The position numbers and the translations under genes were made by a program. A stretch of DNA of 64,000 nt from Unio delphinus (lineage: Eukaryota; Mollusca; Bivalvia; Unionida; Unionidae): the NCBI GenBank assembly GCA_029339505.1, contig JAQISU010000167.1, forward strand, positions 899,001-963,000, in the 5' to 3' direction. Within the stretch, counting starts at the first letter, position 1. Each line of letters starts with the position of its first letter. The notes under the pieces were generated by a model that saw nothing but the letters and a program-made list of their open reading frames with translations, did no database searches and was not told where the DNA came from. This document shows, in pieces, positions 43,501 to 64,000 of this stretch.

Positions 43501-46500
43501 CCAAACAAAGCATGTATTTTGATTGATTCAAAGCATTTGAGTGACTGAAGTTTTACTGTAATATATATGTTCTAATGACTTGTTTCATTCTTTTCACCCC
43601 AAATTATTAATGGAAACTTGTCAAGCCTGCATTAGGGTGAATGAGTCACATCAGTCAGTTTTCTAGTGGTAGTGGCAGAATCGTTCTCATACCTTTTTAC
43701 GAGTTTGGTTTAATCTGCACAATCATACAGTGCAACTCCTCAAAACTAATAATTCAGGATACCATAATCCCCTCAAGACCGAATATATTGTTTAGTCACA
43801 AAATTTATTGTCATCAATTTTCCCCCCAATAAGCACAAATCACTCAACACCAAAACAAATTTTGATCCCAAATTTAAATCTTGCACTTATACCCTATAAA
43901 AACAAAAAGTTAGTTGAAACTTGAAAATATGAAATTTGTAAATATTTAGCTACAAAATGTATGTGCACACACTGGAACAGATTGTGGTTAACAGGTACTG
44001 TAGATGTATGATCTGTGAAATAATGAGCCGGAAAATGTCCTCTGGGGATGTTTGTTTAAAACTAAACTTGACATGCACACTATTACAGAATGAGTGCAGA
44101 TAATAGACTAATCTAAAGTCTTTTCACAAAAGAACCAACTTTTAAAGCTAATTATATGTATTGATAATTAAATGCCTGTAGGTAAGCCATTTAAGAAAGA
44201 CTGTCCTTTATCTGCTTATTATCTAAATGTGATTGATAAAATGATATTCAATTGTATTGCATGATTGATTGATTATAGTTTACTTGTTTGTTAAATTAAA
44301 TATCAGGGCTTTGTTAAGTAGGCATGTAGTCTTGCTTTTGGTTCGTTGCCAACAGAGACAGAGAAAACTGATTACATACATGTATTTATGTAGCCATGAC
44401 TGTCATTTGTCTTCACTCAAAGCAGTGATGTTTTGTATACAGTGCTACATTTGAGAAATTGAAACCACATTTAATCAGCAGTTCTCAGACACTTACTGCT
44501 TTAAAGACGTTATGTTATACAACTAGACAGTGACATATATAGCTAAAAGGAAATTATGGATAACAACACCAATATTCATCAAATGGATAAATAATGTAAA
44601 CATAAGTTGGCGGGAGAGATAAATCATTATGATACATCACACAGACCTGATCTACATCGGAGTCATGTGACTTTGAACTTGTGTTGCAGTTTCATGAAAG
44701 CAAGTAGGCCAGTAATTTGTTGTTGTTGGCTTGACTTTGCACACGAAGATTAAGAAGGAAGATTTCTATGTCTATTGCACTTGCGCTGATGGCTGACGAA
44801 CCCAATACGTGATAGGCACGTCCGTCCACAGAGGCTGCAGGGGAATGTCTGGGTTTTGGTGGGTGCTGACAATGGCTCCCGGTTTTTTATTTGCCAACGT
44901 TTTTCCTCCAAGATGGCCCGTCTGTTTTGTTCAAAAGTGTCAGCGGCCTGGTGAATTGTACGTCGCCAGCTTGTACGGTCAACAGCTAGTGATGCCCATT
45001 GGCGGTGATCAATGCCACAGGAGGTAAGGGTCTTTTTCAAGGAGTCTTTATATCTCTTTCGAGGTGCCCCTCTATCATGGTGGCCAGTTGATAGCTCACC
45101 ATACAGTGCAATTTTTGGCAGGCGATGATCCTCCATCCTGGACACATGCCCTGCCCAGCGAAGCTGTATCTTCACGAGTGTGGCCTCAACGCTGGTGATC
45201 CCCGCTTGCTTGAGGACTTCAGTGTTGGTAACGAAGTCACTCCAGTGGATGTTGAGGATGGTGCGGAGGCAGCGCTGATGGAAGCGTTCAAGGAGACGGA
45301 GGTGACGGCTGTAGGTGACCAAGGATTCGGCGCCATATAGGAGGGTGGTCAGTACGACAGCCATGTAGACTTTGATTTTTGTAACTCTCTTGAGATTGGG
45401 ATTGTGCCAGACACGTTTGTAGAGTCTGCCGAAGGTGCTGTTTGCTTTGGCTAATCTGTTGTCTATTTCTTTGTCGATCATTGCATCAGAGGATATCACA
45501 CAGCCTAGGTAGGTGAACTGGTGGACTACATTTAGCTCTGTCCGGTCAATGAGGATGCTTGGTGGACGGTACTCTTCCTTGGGGGCAGGCTGGTGAAGTA
45601 CCACAGTTTTCTTTAGGCTTACCTCGAGGCCAAAGAGCTGGCAAGCTTCTGCAAAGCAAGATGTTGCTCGTTGTAAGGCAGCTTCCGTGTGGGCAAAAAG
45701 GGCGGCATCGTCTGCAAATAGAAGTTCTCTGATCAGTTTTTCTAAAGTTTTGGTGTGGGCCTGAAGTCGCCTTAAGTTGAAGAGGTTGCCATCAGTACGG
45801 AATCTAATATAGATGCCATCTTCGTCACCAAGGTCTTCTGTAGCTTTTCGGAGCATCGTGCTGAAGAAGATTGAAAACAGTGTAGGAGCTAAAACGCAGC
45901 CCTGTTTCATGCCATTTGCAATGGGGAAGGTCTGTGACAATTCGTTATTGTTTTTAACCTGACCAAGCTGGTCTTCATGTAGTTGGATGATCATGGTAAG
46001 GAATTTGGGAGGACAGCCAAGTTTTTCAAGGATTTTCCACAGTCCAGTTCTGCTCACCGTGTCAAAAGCCTTTGTTAGGTCCACAAAAGTGATGTACATT
46101 CCTTTGTTTTGTTCTCTGCATTTTTCCTGGATCTGTCTCAGGACGAACACCATGTCAGTTGTGCCCCTATTGGCTCTGAAGCCACACTGACTCTCTGGAA
46201 CATGATCTTCTGCAATGGTAGGCACTAGTCTGTTTAGCAACACTCTAGCAAGGCCAGTAATTAATGTTATGATGATGATCAGTTTCATGAAAGCAATTAG
46301 ACCAGTGATCAATGTTATGATGAGAATGTTATGAGCCACCTGGCAATGATATGACATTCTTTGAAATTTTAGAGCTTATAAGTGACATTTCAAAGGATGA
46401 TTCTTACTTGGCTATGGCACAAAAAATGGAGTCATTAACACAAACTACAATAGTTAAAGAATGATGTAAGAAACAACAGACATCATTTCATGCATTCATC

Positions 46501-53860: not shown

Positions 53861-56800
53861 CTATTCCATGATTATGTAAAAGAAATGGCATATGTTGCCT
53901 TGAGTTCAGCCTGCATTTACATTCCTGGTCAGTTCATGAAACTAGTAATCTGCACAGTATGGTCTTGCTGGTAAAAATATTCAGACATATCTTGGTCTTG
54001 CTGATATAAATATTCAGACATATCTTGGTCTTGCTGATAAAAATATTCAGACATATCATGGTCTTGCTGATAAAAATTTTCAGACATATCTTGGTCTTGC
54101 TGATAAAAATATTCAGACATATCTTGGTCTTGCTGATAAAAATATTCAGACATATCTTGGTCTTGCTGATAAAAATATTCAGACATATCTTGGTCTTGCT
54201 GATAAAAATATTCAGACATATCATGGTCTTGCTGATAAAAATTTTCAGACATATCTTGGTCTTGCTGATAAAAATATTCAGACATATCTTGGTCTTGCTG
54301 ATAAAAATATTCAGACATATCTTGGTCTTGCTGATAAAAATATTCAGACATATCTTGGTCTTGCTGATAAAAATATTCAGACATATCTTGGTCTTGCTGA
54401 TAAAAATATTCAGACATATCTTGGTCTTGCTGATAAAAATATTCAGACAGATCTTGGAAAATATAATATATTTTAAGAGCTAGTTGAGAATGTTGACTCA
54501 GATAACATGCTCAGCTGTTCGTAAAATGCCAAGTATTTTGAAACCTGTTTGTCAATGATATTTTTTGTCCTGACCCTTAAACTTTGAAGATGTTGAATGC
54601 AGATGGGACACTGGAATCCCTGAATTCTCACATTGGGATGCATGAACTTTCTAGTAATCAACTCTTTATTTTTTTTATCTGTCCAGCTTTCTATGCTTGT
54701 TGTAACCACCAAGACTCAGCATCCTTTGTTCAAAATTCCATAGTCGCATCTTTTCGGGTCTAGATTTAATGAAGTCCTTTTTCAATTAAGTTTCAATCTT
54801 CAGTACAGCAGATCTTTCTAATAGAATAGCTTAGGAACCATTCCATGCATTCTGATGCAGATTAGTGTGTACCCTGTTTAATGGACCTTGATGTGCCTTT
54901 TGTAGGTTTCGTCTTGTGTACTCTAATTTAAAAATGTAAAATCCCTTGACAGTTCATTTTTCATGGAATGTTTGCTTATAACCAGCATAGCTAAAGAAGC
55001 TTTGACACACTAATTTGATTTGAATAACATTTGGTAGACCAAGATATACCTTTTATGGATTTTGCTTTGTCTACTCCATTTTGGACAGTTATAGCTCCTC
55101 AGCTAAGTATCTTTACATGGAATGTTGCTTGTGTTGAGAAGAGTTCGAAGGGGTTAGATTTCAAGCACTCCATATCATCAGTTTGAGGAGTTATTGCCCC
55201 TGAAGACCCATAGTCTATCTTGGGTTTCCCAGCACAAGCTTCTCTGTACAAGGCTGTAGCATATTGTATTGATGCACCCATTCCTTTTAGCTGTAGTTAA
55301 TTATCTATAATTAGTAATTTTTCAGAAAATAATTAAAATGAAAATTAAAATGCTGCAATATTTTCATAATTTCAGAATTGTGAACTTGGCACGAGATTAT
55401 AGCACAAGACGAACAGCATTCGGGAACAAGCTGAAAAACTATCCTCTTCATATGCAAACATTAGCAAGAATGGAGGTCAGAAAATAATCTTAGGAAGATT
55501 CAGTATATGTTGACATATAGGTAGAATATGTAACTGGTTGGTGAGACAGGTCGTTTTTGCATGTATTCCTTATAAAATCAGTTGATCACTGTATATCAGA
55601 TATTGCTAATGTTGGTACTTGATACAAGTATTCAAAAATCTGTTAATCACTCTATCAGTTGTTGGTATTGTAGGTAATTGATACAATTATTCATAAAACA
55701 TTTGAACACTGTATCATATGTTGGTAATACAGGTAATTGATACAGGTATTCACAAATCATTTGATCACTGTATCATATGTTGGTAATGTTTTTAATGGAT
55801 ACAATTATTCATAAATCAATTGATCACTTATCAGATGTTGGAATACAGGTAGTTGATACAGGAATAATGAAAGAATGAATTTGACTTGAATCATTTGTAT
55901 TTGAAGGTGTGATTTAATTCGGTTTCATTCTTTTCCTGTCTTGCTTATCTCAGATTGTGCCCAATATTACTTTATAATCATGTTGGTGCAAGAGAATTAA
56001 GCTGACAAATAAATATACATGATAGCTACATTTGCCATAAAATTACTTGTGAAAGCCACAAATTAAAAATTTGTCATTGCAGCCTTACCCCATATTAGTA
56101 AAGTTGATACATAATTAGACCTCCTGCTCCAGATTGCACTACATGAATTTCAGGTACAATACATGATTTACACCCATTGTATGCAATGTAAAACTAAGAT
56201 TAGTACATGTCATTAATGCATACAGCTGACCATGATATCAAAGTTAGTGATACATGTCATTGATGCATTCAGCTGACCATGCTATCGAAGTTAGAGATAC
56301 ATGTGATTGATGCATTCAGCTGACCATGCTATCAAAGTTAGAGATACATGTCATTGATGCATTCAGCTTACCATGCTATCAAAGTTAGAGATACATGTGA
56401 TTGATGCATTCAGCTGACCATGCTATCAAAGTTAGAGATACATGTGATTGATGCATTCAGCTGACCATGATATCAAAGTTAGTGATACATGTCATTGATG
56501 AATACAGCTGACCATGATATCAAAGTTAGAGATACATGTCATTGATGCATTCAGCTGACCATGACATCAGAGTTAGTGATACATGACATTGATGCATTCA
56601 GCTGACCATGATATCAAAGTTAGTGATACATGTCATTGATGCACACAGCTGACCATGATATCAAAGTTAGTGATACATGTCATTGATGCATACAGCTGAC
56701 CATGATATCAAAGTTAGTGATACATGTCACTGATGCATACAGTTTATTATCATATAAGAAGATAGTGATACAAATTAGGGCTGTTCCATTTAGAGATACA

Positions 56801-59187: not shown

Positions 59188-59332
59188 GTCTGTATAAGTT
59201 AAACTGCATTGATTCAAACACAACAAGTGCCACTCCTTCTGCAGCAACATATTGGTCTGATAGAAAGGGTGGTCTTTTGAGGGGCAACAAGAGTGTAAAA
59301 GTCACTTTAATCAGAAATAGAACATGTGCTGC

Positions 59333-59503
59333 AGCAGCAGAGAGGGTGAACCCTACAACGAGCGTGAAAGCGTCGAATCGAACAAAAGCGTCGACAACCA
59401 AGCACAAAACAACCAAAGAAAAGCGTCGAATCGTAAAAAAGCGTCGACAACATACGCTTCCTCATCTACGCCAGCGTCGTTGTCATCCACCCTCTCTGCT
59501 GCT
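59333..59503. repeat. Inverted repeat and GCGTCGA-rich block at the presumed left end of the element
   Basis: A 16-bp perfect inverted repeat (AGCAGCAGAGAGGGTG at 59333-59348, its complement at 59488-59503) encloses about 140 bases. Inside lie two ~33-bp direct copies built from AAGCGTCGAATCG and AAGCGTCGACAAC, around 59,366-59,398 and 59,418-59,452. Just inside each arm are further related sequences (ACAACGAGCGT and its near-complement). This is foldback-type architecture, fitting a terminal repeat. Confidence 0.55.
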
Positions 59504-59541
59504 AGAACTTTCAGTTCTGGGTTAATAATTTTTTTACGAGT

Positions 59542-60213
59542 TTAACCGAATATTTGATCCAGTCCGATACGATATCGTGTTCGAGGATCATGTAAATTTA
59601 TTGTTATAAATCCATACGGGGTTGACAGAGCGTTACTAAAGAAATTTCTAAATTGATTGAAGTCCATATCAGAGCACCATGTCTGCCAAATATTTCGTAA
59701 CGTATGTGTATCAACGCCGTTAAACACAGCAAGAATATTACAGTTATCTCTGATCACTTTTGGAATCTGAGTGTATCGTTGAGTGACATATATCACGTCG
59801 GTGTTTTTATGCCTGCCTCTGGAAAAGATCCTAGCAGGATTTTTTTCATTGTCTAACATCACATCGTCGTATACGACTCAATTATTAATGTTCCCATCAA
59901 GGTCATCCACGGATGGTGCCTCGTCAATATCAGTTATAAAATCAATGGCGTTCTCACCCTTAATTTCTGATGCATTCTCGTTAAAATCCTTTAACACTTC
60001 ATAACATCGTTGATCATCTACGCTAGGGGCAATTAAATACAACTTATCCCACTTCATCCATCTCATTATTAAATTGAGTAACAATTGTGTCTTGCTGGAT
60101 CCAGATGGCCCGATTATAATCATCCGGATAGAGTTTGGTAGCGCTGCATGATGCTTAACTGGTTCTCTTGCTTTAGTCGCTGAAAAATCAATTATATCCA
60201 TGTTTCTATACAT
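59542..60213 (-). pseudogene. FtsK/HerA (A32-like) DNA-packaging ATPase, split by an in-frame stop
   Basis: The family uses ATP hydrolysis to pump viral DNA into capsids. The upstream part (from 60213, or more likely the ATG at 60201) carries Walker A, GPSGSSKT, at residues 35-42. A TGA at 59878-59880 then ends the frame. The next codons, still in the same frame, read VVYDDVMLD, the Walker B region, and run on to 59542 with IYVTQRYTQIPKVIRDN. So one stop separates the two nucleotide-binding motifs. Loss of function is the simple reading; recoding is possible but unsupported. The downstream part lacks its own convincing start. Confidence 0.82.
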
Positions 60214-60218: not shown

Positions 60219-60485
60219 ATGGATCTATATTGTGTGAAGTGTAAAACGCGTACTGGCACAGATGACTTGACGACGATTACAACTAGAAATAACCGATCAG
60301 CGCTTTCTGGTAAATGCGTGCAATGTGGTACAAAAAAATTTAGATTTATTTCTACAAAATCAAAGATTTTACAATCCGGAGATGTTTTTAAAAAAAACGA
60401 GGAGGTGATATCGCAGCCAAATTGGCAAAACTCCCTGGAACCCCATGGGAAAGTACCCCGGAGAAAAGCACCTTCCAGGATATAG
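60219..60485 (+). CDS. Small zinc-binding (DUF5679-like) protein region
   Basis: An 88-codon frame from the ATG at 60219. Its first ~45 residues hold two CxxC pairs (YCVKCK near residues 5-8 and CVQCG near 33-36) spaced like a treble-clef/zinc-ribbon fold. This resembles the DUF5679 domain seen in Polinton-like elements and large DNA viruses; its role is not known. After an eight-A run near 60,390-60,397 the coding signal appears to leave this frame, so the last ~30 residues are probably not authentic. The zinc region may originally have been fused to the phospholipase region that follows. Confidence 0.6.
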   Translation: MDLYCVKCKTRTGTDDLTTITTRNNRSALSGKCVQCGTKKFRFISTKSKILQSGDVFKKNEEVISQPNWQNSLEPHGKVPRRKAPSRI

Positions 60486-60756
60486 CTACTGTGGCCCTGG
60501 AACACGATTAGATATCAGACTTGATGATCAAAATCAACCCAGATCCGGCGAGTATCCGATAAACGCCATTGATAAGGCGTGTCACGCTCATGATGTTGCA
60601 TATAAAAGCAGCAATCTGCAACACAGGCATCTCGCAGATGTGAAATTAATTCATGCGTTAAATGCTATTCCTGATAAATCTTTGAAAGAAAAATTGGCTT
60701 CGTGGTTGGTAAAATCAGCTATGAAAGGCAAATTGATGATGGGTGCTGGTAATTAA
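60445..60756 (+). CDS. Phospholipase A2-like domain (parvovirus VP1-type), 5' part frame-broken
   Basis: Contains the PLA2 hallmarks: a calcium-loop-like YCGPGT (near residues 15-20) and the catalytic His-Asp pair in HAHDVAYK (near residues 46-53), followed by a helical, basic C-terminus. Such domains in viral particles help breach endosomal membranes (family knowledge). The ATG at 60445 is only the first Met in this frame. Coding-like sequence just upstream (60,400-60,444) lies in a different frame, so the true start is probably further left and the gene is shifted near 60,444. The stop lies 4 bases before the integrase ATG. Confidence 0.7.
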   Translation: MGKYPGEKHLPGYSYCGPGTRLDIRLDDQNQPRSGEYPINAIDKACHAHDVAYKSSNLQHRHLADVKLIHALNAIPDKSLKEKLASWLVKSAMKGKLMMGAGN

Positions 60757-60760
60757 TAAT

Positions 60761-61489
60761 ATGGAATCTATTTATTATTCTCCGAGAGGATACTGGAGGG
60801 GTAACGCTGCAATCAATAAACTCGCCAACGCCGCAAAAGTGAAAAAGGCTACTGCGGCTAATTGGTTATCCAAACAGGCACTATGGCAGATTTATCTACC
60901 ACCGCCTAAACAAATCAATTTTTCGCATTTTGATGTTACCGGACCCAATGAAGTTCATCAAGCTGATTTATTGTTTTTACCACATGACAACGATTACAAA
61001 TACGCGCTAACCGTAGTTGACGTTGCGAGTCGATACAAACAAGCAGAACCGCTAAAAACAAAGTCAGCTACTGAAGTAGCTTCTGCATTTGAAAAGATTT
61101 ATCGAAAGGGTCCTCTGCGTTGGCCGAATCTGTTACAAGTTGATCCTGGCAAGGAATTTCAGGGTGCAGTGTTATCAGCGATGAAACATCATAATGTCAC
61201 CATCAGACGAGGGCAAACTGCGCTACATCGCGATCAGGCAATTGTTGAACGATTTAATCGGACTCTTGCTGAGCGGTTATTTGGATATCAATACGCGAAG
61301 GAGTTTATTCAGGATAAAAGATCCCGTGAATGGGTTAAGAGATTACCAGCTGTGATTACCGCACTCAATAACGAGATTACTCGAACAATTAACATGAAAC
61401 CTGTCAACGCGATTAAGAAAGCGTCTATACCAAAAATGGAAATCCAAGGAATTTCACAAAACAGATTTCAAAGAACCAATTCTTGGTAG
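60761..61489 (+). CDS. Retroviral-type (rve) integrase of Polinton kind, catalytic core intact
   Basis: 242 codons from the ATG at 60761. The enzyme joins the element's ends to target DNA. The N-terminal part has SPRGYWRG and a helix-turn-helix-like stretch. The core holds the DDE triad: Asp in HQADLLF (about residue 69), Asp in LQVDPGKEF (about 128) and Glu in AIVERFNR (about 163), with 34 residues between the last two, as expected for D,D-35-E enzymes. The frame closes shortly after, but its natural continuation lies one base off in the next frame (61,460-61,721), so the C-terminal DNA-binding part is cut away. Confidence 0.85.
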   Translation: MESIYYSPRGYWRGNAAINKLANAAKVKKATAANWLSKQALWQIYLPPPKQINFSHFDVTGPNEVHQADLLFLPHDNDYKYALTVVDVASRYKQAEPLKTKSATEVASAFEKIYRKGPLRWPNLLQVDPGKEFQGAVLSAMKHHNVTIRRGQTALHRDQAIVERFNRTLAERLFGYQYAKEFIQDKRSREWVKRLPAVITALNNEITRTINMKPVNAIKKASIPKMEIQGISQNRFQRTNSW

Positions 61490-61721
61490 TAATGTCACTG
61501 TGAGATATTTATACGAACCAGGAGAGCTTGAAGGTGGCAGAAAAAGGGCTACTGATCCTATTTGGAGTGTTACTGCACACAAGATATCTACTATAACACG
61601 ATCAACTGGTAGACCAGCAATCTATAAACTGGATTCAACTGCCCCTCAGCGGGGTTTTACACGCGAACAATTACAAGTGATTCCTGACGATACTCAATTG
61701 CCACCTCATGGTCTTAACTAG
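61460..61721 (+). pseudogene. Integrase C-terminal (SH3/chromo-like) region in shifted frame
   Basis: This frame, offset from the integrase core, carries VRYLYEPGELEGGRKRATDP and IWSVTAHKIS, then PAIYKLDS and GFTREQLQVIP. That pattern of small beta strands is typical of the C-terminal tail of Polinton-type integrases. It has no convincing start of its own. A single indel between about 61,450 and 61,485 would explain the split. The TAG stop at 61719-61721 overlaps the end of the convergent polymerase gene. Confidence 0.7.
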
Positions 61722-64000
61722 CACCCCTTCGTCTGTTGCACTCAAGACAAGTCAGCATAACATTATCGTTGGTATGACCAATGCTGCTATTCTTTCTGTC
61801 TACGGTAAATTGGCGAGGATCTTTACCCGAATACTGCCAACGCATTATACAATTGCAACTCGCGCAGTGATTATTCTGTTGTTGTTTCAGCGTAATTATT
61901 AATTTAGCATCAATGTCAAATTCTCTATTATTTTTTTTATCCTGTTGTTTATAACCGGAGAGTTTTTTATTAATGATGCTAGCATCATCCATTGTAGTGT
62001 CACCAATGATTTCATCATCGCCTGACTCTGTCAGGACAACTCTTCGAAGTTGATTTAATCTCCTCACTCTGGATACTGCAAGATAGACTAAATTCGACCA
62101 TTCGATGCGATTATCTACCATCCAAACAATTGTATCCGATATAGTCAATCCCTGTGAAGAATGTATCGTCGCTGCGTATCCTAGCGTCCACGGGGATTTA
62201 TTAGCACGCAATGCATCTTCAACGACGCTGATATCAACCAGCACAATATCATTTAACACGAGAATCTGCTTTTCACTCTTCCCTGGAATATCAACTTCAA
62301 TATTCTGCTTTCGTGTATCTGAAGGCCTATAACACAACGGTACTGGAAGTGTTGCAAATTTTTCTTTATGCATTTCAAATAACTTCATCTGAAGTGTGTC
62401 TCTGACTATTTTTCTACTTGCTACTATCAAATCATTTGGTCTCCACGTTTCCCAAAAATCATTCATGGGAGTTTCTGAAATTATTTCATGCGCTATTTCA
62501 CATTGGATTTTATCCGGCTGTAATCTAATCAGTGCTTTGAACTCGCGTAATTGTTCATCAAGTGATCTATAATCAGTAGTAATTTCTTCATAGTAGTCTA
62601 CAAAAAAACCCTTTAGCCATTCATGTGGAGATGCACCGACAAATGGTGGTGGTTGGCCGTGATCACCACACATGACGATTTTTGTGTTTTTGTTTAACAA
62701 CCATTCGAGAAATGTTTGTAATACTCTCAACGATACCGTGCATATTTCATCCCAAATTATGATTTCAGGAATGAATTTATCACCCATTTGATCAGGGGTC
62801 CATTCATCGCCTTTCCATCGAAAGAAACTGTGATAAGTACATGCATTTACCCCTCGCTGTATCATCTCTCTGGCGAGTCTGTGAGTCGGTGTTAACACAA
62901 TCATATTTGACCGACGATATAATTCAATTGCACGAGTTGTCTTTCCTGACCCACCACAACCGTTTAAATAAACTGTCTTGTGTCTATATATTGGATCAGA
63001 TACCGGTGGTGCATTAGAAAATGATTGAATCTTATCACACTTTAAGTACTTTTCATCCATGGTAACATCTGCTGATTCACAATACTCATGTAGTTTTTCC
63101 TTTTTAAATCGCCAACGTCCCCAGTTTTCCTCGGGATCTGTGAATTTAGCTACATCTGATTTGTATTTCTCGTGGATATAAATAGAATCAGTGGCTACTC
63201 TAACTGCGTTATTAGGAAATCTATTTATCATCAAAAATAAATTGAAAGAAGCATAAGCTAGCATAGAACTTCTCAGATGTGTGTACTGGGAATTATATCC
63301 ATCACAATAGGTAACAACCGTACCCAATTTCTCACCATTGGATAGAAAAACGTCTTTACGATTTACAAGTTTTCCCTGTTTCGTTAAATCCGTTACAATA
63401 AAATCGTATTCAGCGACGTCTATGATCAACCGCGAGGAATATTTTGCATTGTCGTATCTTCCACCCTGGGTAAATTTACCGATTATTCTTCGTCCAAAAT
63501 CTTTTGCTTGTTCTTTTTTAATTTCAAATAACTTTTTAGACCAATTCATGACTTCTTCCTCGCTGAAATCTGGAAATTGTTTTCGCTGTTCGCTAATTAT
63601 ACGATCTAGATCGGGTTGTGGTAGCCAAACTTCTTTCTGAGCTCGATAGCATATAATAGCTTCGGAAACAATCAACGATTGTAACATCTCACAATCAATC
63701 ATATATCGTAGTAACACTATTGGCATCCAGGCCTTTTCAGATATATGTCTACCAAGCCAAACATAACTACACGGATGTAACCCTGTAGCGAGTTCAAATG
63801 ATATCACACGAGCGAATCCGGTTAAATCAAAATCAGGTAATGGCCCATTAATCGCAACACGAGTCATTTCATGCGTGGGGTGTCCAAATCGTTTAAAGTA
63901 CTCAGCGGCTTCTCCATATCCTAGAAAACTCCCTGGATAACACGCAGCTTTATCAATTGAAATCATACCATCACGATGGTATTTTGTATTCCACAGTCCT
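61714..64000 (-). CDS. Family-B DNA polymerase (C-terminal part) fused to SF1 helicase and HNH nuclease; N-terminus beyond window
   Basis: Open from the window edge to the stop at 61714, over 760 codons; numbering here is from the Met at 63966. Polymerase: motif A-like ISIDKAACYPGS (2-13), a lysine/glycine-rich motif B-like stretch DFGRRIIGKFTQGG (156-169) and the catalytic ATDSIYI (258-264, motif C). Helicase: Walker A NGCGGSGKTT (335-344), Walker B IIWDE (403-407), GDHGQ (434-438), TIHSSQGLT (600-608) and YLAVSRVRR (628-636), the SF1 Pif1/RecD-like set. Nuclease: CASC (701-704), TVDRKNSSIGH (721-731) and CLECN (740-744), an HNH/EndoVII-like zinc fold. Role: replication of the element, with unwinding and cleavage built into one chain. 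No internal stop is visible. Ordinary Polinton polymerases lack such a tail (established knowledge). Confidence 0.85.
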   Translation of the reverse strand, partial: GLWNTKYHRDGMISIDKAACYPGSFLGYGEAAEYFKRFGHPTHEMTRVAINGPLPDFDLTGFARVISFELATGLHPCSYVWLGRHISEKAWMPIVLLRYMIDCEMLQSLIVSEAIICYRAQKEVWLPQPDLDRIISEQRKQFPDFSEEEVMNWSKKLFEIKKEQAKDFGRRIIGKFTQGGRYDNAKYSSRLIIDVAEYDFIVTDLTKQGKLVNRKDVFLSNGEKLGTVVTYCDGYNSQYTHLRSSMLAYASFNLFLMINRFPNNAVRVATDSIYIHEKYKSDVAKFTDPEENWGRWRFKKEKLHEYCESADVTMDEKYLKCDKIQSFSNAPPVSDPIYRHKTVYLNGCGGSGKTTRAIELYRRSNMIVLTPTHRLAREMIQRGVNACTYHSFFRWKGDEWTPDQMGDKFIPEIIIWDEICTVSLRVLQTFLEWLLNKNTKIVMCGDHGQPPPFVGASPHEWLKGFFVDYYEEITTDYRSLDEQLREFKALIRLQPDKIQCEIAHEIISETPMNDFWETWRPNDLIVASRKIVRDTLQMKLFEMHKEKFATLPVPLCYRPSDTRKQNIEVDIPGKSEKQILVLNDIVLVDISVVEDALRANKSPWTLGYAATIHSSQGLTISDTIVWMVDNRIEWSNLVYLAVSRVRRLNQLRRVVLTESGDDEIIGDTTMDDASIINKKLSGYKQQDKKNNREFDIDAKLIITLKQQQNNHCASCNCIMRWQYSGKDPRQFTVDRKNSSIGHTNDNVMLTCLECNRRRGAS

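Follow-up and report, generated by a model that had tools for sequence, protein, structure and literature searches.

We found that one element of a mollusc genome encodes a polymerase B (PolB) palm, an SF1 helicase and an HNH nuclease in a single chain, and that this fusion is real, conserved and multiplied in the genome. With a probability of roughly 0.8, we read the protein as the replicase of an integrated Polinton-like virus, in which replication would be protein primed and helicase driven, with cutting by the HNH domain. The window, meaning the whole stretch of DNA analysed, is 64,000 nucleotides long (G000:C176:899001-963000 of a 2.5-Gb genome); L012 and L013 are further stretches of the same contig. 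Within the window, the replicase occupies a single uninterrupted minus-strand frame of 761 codons, from its stop at 61714 to the right edge, a length with a chance of ∼7e-26 at this base composition. Its parts are as follows.

61714..64000, minus strand: fused replicase (palm, SF1 helicase, HNH), with its 5' part beyond the window
62990..63999, minus strand, limits approximate: PolB palm, protein-primed type
63931-63954, minus strand: motif A of the palm
around 63460-63486, minus strand: motif B-like GRRIIGKFTQGG of the palm, by look
63178-63204, minus strand: motif C of the palm, VRVATDSIY
62050..62989, minus strand, limits approximate: SF1 helicase, Pif1/Dda/RecD2 type
61717..61950, minus strand: C-terminal HNH/endonuclease VII-like domain

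From the N terminus to the C terminus, the conserved blocks run DKAACYPG, GRRIIGKFTQGG, VRVATDSIY, GCGGSGKTT, IIIWDE, GDHGQPPPF, TIHSSQG and AVSRV, so ordered that the SF1 helicase is C-terminal to the palm, and a CxxC-DR-H-N-CxxCN tail closes the chain. The preliminary description had claimed this union of PolB, SF1 helicase and HNH, and the uninterrupted frame with its motif C VATDSIYI bears the claim out. Pfam searches with the window replicase revealed AAA_19 (9.5e-12) and AAA_30 (1.9e-8), both above the cut-off, and the PHROGs revealed a Dda-like helicase (1.5e-15). The nearest PHROG match of residues 684-760 was endonuclease VII (9e-10).

What lies upstream of the palm? Extension past the right edge of the window, as had been proposed, showed the frame to be stop-free on to L012:1780, with a likely start ATG at L012:1729 (window-equivalent 65229) and a replicase of about 1171 aa. 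The added N-terminal part contains NCVATRVMEHF and HNEHAW. Cys177 was present in 29 of 31 rows and His258 in 30 of 31 rows of the family alignment A1, the remainder being gaps, and the same Cys and His were found in all 13 rows of alignment A7, the window copy included. By its residue pattern, this pair appears to fit the vOTU site described in PMC11071308; sequence searches with the N-terminal part of the replicase returned no match to an OTU protease. In the predicted structure of a relative (P0002), an alpha/beta domain is seen at residues 19-112, and nothing but helices is seen from residue 329 to the first palm strand at 404. These helices are too little for an exonuclease, which is therefore absent directly before the palm in this model.

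The replicase sits in an element spanning about 16,189 bp, bounded by terminal inverted repeats of 236 bp (232/236 identical), with the following features.

59328..59563: left terminal inverted repeat, with its partner at L013:1781-2016 (window-equivalent 75281-75516)
59542..60213, minus strand: A32-like packaging ATPase in two ORFs, with an in-frame stop in the window copy
60219..60485, plus strand: zinc-ribbon ORF, DUF5679 (PF18930, 1.5e-13)
60445..60756, plus strand: phospholipase A2 (PLA2)-like ORF (PF08398, 5.2e-11)
60743..61489, plus strand: RVE integrase (PF00665, 7.3e-8)
L012:2112-2603, beside the replicase: separate HNH_3 gene (1.7e-13) that also matches NUMOD1 weakly
between the terminal repeats: double-jelly-roll (DJR) capsid protein (PF21738, 1.1e-20)
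between the terminal repeats: 109-aa piece of an adenain-like protease (0.0039, below cut-off)
behind the capsid gene: ORF of 179 aa, no confident family
L013:387-1778: ORF of 463 aa, no confident family

The terminal inverted repeats, integrase and capsid gene agree with the earlier view of the element as Polinton-like. The ATPase pieces scored 20.5 and 15.8 bits, both below the Pfam cut-off of 22.8, and several ORFs, the 179-aa and 463-aa ORFs among them, have no confident family. The window copy is damaged: the ATPase is broken and, by look, so is the integrase, which falls short of the roughly 313-343 aa of most full relatives and whose apparent C terminus continues in another frame. Bona fide Polintons have a 6-bp target site duplication; at the BLAST ends of the element no duplication of 4 to 11 bp was found, and a CAG-type repeat at each end leaves the exact boundaries ambiguous. 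The terminal repeat at 59328-59563 contains internal direct repeats at 53-bp spacing and a perfect 16-bp inverted repeat, and at 60219-60756 the DUF5679 zinc ribbon overlaps the parvovirus-type PLA2 domain in different frames. Elsewhere in the window, a tandem repeat at 53929-54483 is open on both strands, and a reverse-transcriptase-like ORF with a C-terminal zinc finger at 44750-46357 is, by look, a LINE remnant.

A genome-wide search with the 750-aa window protein revealed at least 60 copies (60 scored of 63256 first-look candidates). The 59 other copies were 91-97% like the window replicase, with the split copy at 84% in its short piece. Fifty-nine of the 60 were recovered as one stretch across the 750 residues; 37 were stop-free in the replicase, 22 had stops and 1 was split. 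Pooled over 20 fetched copies, a set that includes 5 copies with stops and some near duplicates, dN/dS came to 0.42 (palm), 0.34 (helicase) and 0.32 (HNH tail). In a stricter set, 15 stop-free copies were reduced to 11 distinct ones, with intervals by codon bootstrap, and the ratios were 0.54 (0.34-0.91) for the palm, 0.35 (0.24-0.53) for the helicase, 0.44 (0.18-1.12) for the HNH tail and 0.43 (0.32-0.58) overall; decay after insertion raises such ratios, and the copies are not independent, with a shared history outside the model. These data from the 11 distinct copies support purifying selection on the palm and the helicase; for the HNH tail, purifying selection is likely but not secured. 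A decayed second copy on contig C18 (G000:C18:1822001-1832000) has replicase pieces at 55-73% (one 14-residue piece at 86%), a capsid at 71%, a protease at 67-73% and the arrangement of the window element; the fetched stretch ends within the replicase. This decayed element lies ∼2.5 kb or less from the PolB gene of an ordinary Polinton.

Ordinary exonuclease-type Polinton PolB loci (e.g., L004-L011, L015 and L018) are abundant in the same genome, with at least 150 matches to PF03175, the exonuclease-bearing protein-primed PolB (pPolB), from 75 scored candidates. Many of these candidates occupy frames 1361-1362 codons long in which an exonuclease part and a polymerase part are both present. A control from this group (L015, 1361 aa) matched PF03175 at 9.9e-44 and no helicase family, in line with the earlier statement that ordinary Polinton PolBs lack a helicase-HNH tail. 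Two ordinary Polintons inspected against the window element were 28-29% alike in the integrase, 44% in the protease and 24% in one ATPase piece, and their capsid proteins gave no match at E 0.01. Given this low likeness and the unmatched capsid, the window element is, on these comparisons, a lineage separate from the inspected ordinary Polintons and not a Polinton with a changed polymerase.

The preliminary description had also called for a search for the same domain order elsewhere, and relatives with the palm-helicase-HNH order were found in molluscs and fungi. The replicase was matched by 102 proteins, many of them partial, and a profile search found 152 matching proteins, of which 120 were listed; named hosts among the listed relatives are the bivalve Sinanodonta, Elysia sea slugs and glomeromycotan (mycorrhizal) fungi. 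Five fused replicases (P0052, P0073, P0110, P0122 and P0124) are filed under bacterial Thiodiazotropha bins and are probably clam host DNA. A tree was built on 714 columns from the window protein and 44 of the 143 family proteins, with 9 further fungal rows left out. All 11 fungal rows formed one clade with support 1.0, as if the family had entered glomeromycotan fungi once. The 10 mollusc-labelled rows, 3 of them Thiodiazotropha bins assumed to be host DNA, did not form one clade. The pairing of the window with Sinanodonta had support 0.47, and the clade of the window with P0001, P0004 and P0007 had support 0.993. Comparing 140 replicase rows with 120 of 3900 integrase rows, we found 6 equal source-contig sizes; 100 shifted controls averaged 0.7 such matches and never exceeded 4. 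The excess is only suggestive of common contigs for integrase and replicase elsewhere. A scan of IMG/VR with the replicase profile returned 1 distant helicase, and one with the capsid protein returned no match.

Is the HNH tail a part of the enzyme or a selfish passenger? One possibility is that a homing endonuclease has invaded the helicase gene and that the tail has no role in replication. Homing has been proposed in print for the HNH and GIY-YIG of Tlr1-like helicases, terminal nucleases that PMC11071308 explains by intein invasion. In the window element, homing-type genes do visit, since the HNH_3 gene with its weak NUMOD1 match (L012:2112-2603) adjoins the replicase, and the bootstrap interval of the tail dN/dS extends to 1.12. 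However, among the 143 family proteins looked at, 70 have at least 120 residues past the helicase motif, and 60 of these carry the full HNH pattern, some fungal proteins included; about half of the other 10 carry damaged HNH remnants, and one was a false pattern match. In A1 the tail retains its key residues in 30 of 31 rows, as it does in all 20 genome copies inspected, and the nearest PHROG of the tail is endonuclease VII. The endonuclease VII match and the family-wide conservation favor a retained role. Homing without a replication role seems somewhat unlikely, and the tail has the look of a retained component more than of a transient homing nuclease.

A second alternative concerns the palm, whose identity was decided by structure; the sequence routes to PolB failed. 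Foldseek matched the pPolB of the Mavirus virophage (1.8e-11), and in a structure comparison phi29 polymerase matched from phi29 residue 231 onward. By sequence, neither PolB nor PF03175 in Pfam matched the window replicase or was among the families listed for A1, hhalign did not recover PolB for the replicase, and the best hit of a PDB profile search was an unrelated protein at E 0.57. In a PHROG scan with palms, 2 of 8 family members matched a DNA polymerase PHROG (best 0.0054), and the window's own piece matched none. The absence of PolB from the VIA whole-model list is uninformative because helicases fill that list. Thus, of the profile recovery expected in one frame, the helicase was obtained (Pfam and PHROGs) and PolB was not, the palm being settled by structure. 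Because sequence profiles miss the palm, such polymerases can pass for plain AAA helicases in databases; of the 102 proteins that matched the replicase, those with Pfam labels are labelled AAA or Viral_helicase1.

Under this second alternative the palm would be dead, a structural remnant, and the protein would work as a helicase. All 31 rows of A1 have Ala in place of the first motif C Asp, the Pfam PolB match is absent, and Krupovic, Yutin and Koonin proposed inactivation in 2016, as cited in PMC11071308. By the same paper, palms without this Asp were held inactive at first and predicted active later, and active polymerases without the same Asp are listed. Against a dead palm, the motif A Asp and the second motif C Asp are kept in 31 of 31 rows, VATDSIY is present in 20 of 20 genome copies inspected, the palm dN/dS is 0.54 (0.34-0.91), and no other polymerase gene was recognised among the subset of the element's ORFs scanned. 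We consider inactivity of the palm improbable and prefer an active polymerase. That unrelated frames were joined by chance or in assembly, or that a host helicase merely lies beside a Polinton, is ruled out for practical purposes by the 60 scored copies, 59 of them one stretch, by database relatives with the same domain order and by the inverted repeats that bound the element.

How might such a replicase work? Linear DNA of the element would be copied from its ends, the inverted repeats, by protein priming, with the N-terminal part of the replicase as the primer. A putative vOTU-like protease (Cys188, with His269 or His272 of the window copy) may release the primer domain, and the exonuclease-less palm would synthesise by strand displacement. 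Pif1, Dda and RecD2 helicases have 5'-to-3' polarity. A helicase of this class, fused to the palm, could therefore follow the fork along the displaced strand and would do the unwinding. With endonuclease VII as its nearest match, the HNH tail may nick or resolve branched intermediates, a role that we infer; the dN/dS of the tail by itself does not decide the matter. Together, the kept catalytic residues and the selection estimates support the prediction that the replicase domains are working parts. The most specific form of our proposal is tentative: in an animal-resident, integrase-bearing, capsid-coding lineage with a single-chain replicase, an endonuclease VII-like HNH might take part in replication by nicking DNA or resolving junctions, coupled to a Pif1-type helicase and a protein-primed polymerase that lacks an exonuclease, in a genome that also has exonuclease-type Polintons.

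The preliminary description had read the fusion as a distinct lineage; the architecture itself is not new: pPolB-S1H with a C-terminal HNH or GIY-YIG is published for polinton-like viruses (PLVs). In PMC11071308, Tlr1-like helicases have the order TP-vOTU-palm-S1H (pPolB-S1H), without exonuclease and with an altered motif C, some end in HNH or GIY-YIG, and the group is widespread in PLVs and transpovirons and predicted to be active polymerases. PLVs with an SF1 helicase bearing a C-terminal GIY-YIG, and with HNH fused N-terminally to helicases, are described in PMC12220804, and a helicase SF1-pPolB chain, helicase first, in an endogenous PLV of Oxyrrhis marina is described in PMC12721341; further background is in PMC4642659, PMC11071296 and PMC10120064. 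What is new is the setting in a mollusc genome beside exonuclease-bearing Polintons, the mollusc and fungal relatives and the conserved HNH tail; a literature search, with most subscription papers outside its reach, found no report of the fusion in molluscs. The exonuclease-less pPolB-S1H, described in the literature covered from protist elements, PLVs and transpovirons, is now seen in dozens of copies in a mollusc genome. With this element and exonuclease-type Polintons side by side in one genome, the published idea of a trade-off between exonuclease and helicase becomes testable, as does the question of selfish passenger versus enzyme part for the C-terminal nuclease.

By the features that could be settled, the window protein fits the Tlr1-like class, the likeness being one of described features. 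With the Tlr1-like helicases of PLVs, Tetrahymena Tlr1 and transpovirons, as described in PMC11071308 and PMC3671162, it shares an N-terminal extension with a candidate vOTU-type Cys/His pair, the exonuclease-less pPolB-type palm with the first motif C Asp altered and the second kept, and the C-terminal SF1 helicase, followed in some by a terminal HNH or GIY-YIG; Tlr1 also has an RVE integrase. Unlike these systems as described, the window family has dozens of copies in a mollusc genome and is accompanied by genes for DUF5679 and PLA2, and where Tlr1 has GIY-YIG the window replicase has HNH, a comparison by published description and not by sequence. The Oxyrrhis marina PLV likewise joins pPolB and an SF1 helicase in one chain, but, in PMC12721341, its helicase is N-terminal and its exonuclease is kept, whereas the window replicase has a C-terminal helicase and, in the structural model, too little space ahead of the palm to fit an exonuclease. 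The Mavirus virophage pPolB, as published, is alike in its exonuclease-less palm behind a vOTU and unlike in that the helicase is a separate SF3 gene. The earlier generalization that helicases of related elements are usually separate and of SF3 type covers just part of what is known. With Polinton/Maverick elements and adintoviruses, the window element shares terminal inverted repeats, an RVE integrase and a DJR capsid protein and, by weak matches, an A32-type ATPase and an adenain-like protease; it differs in that their PolB carries an exonuclease and no helicase.
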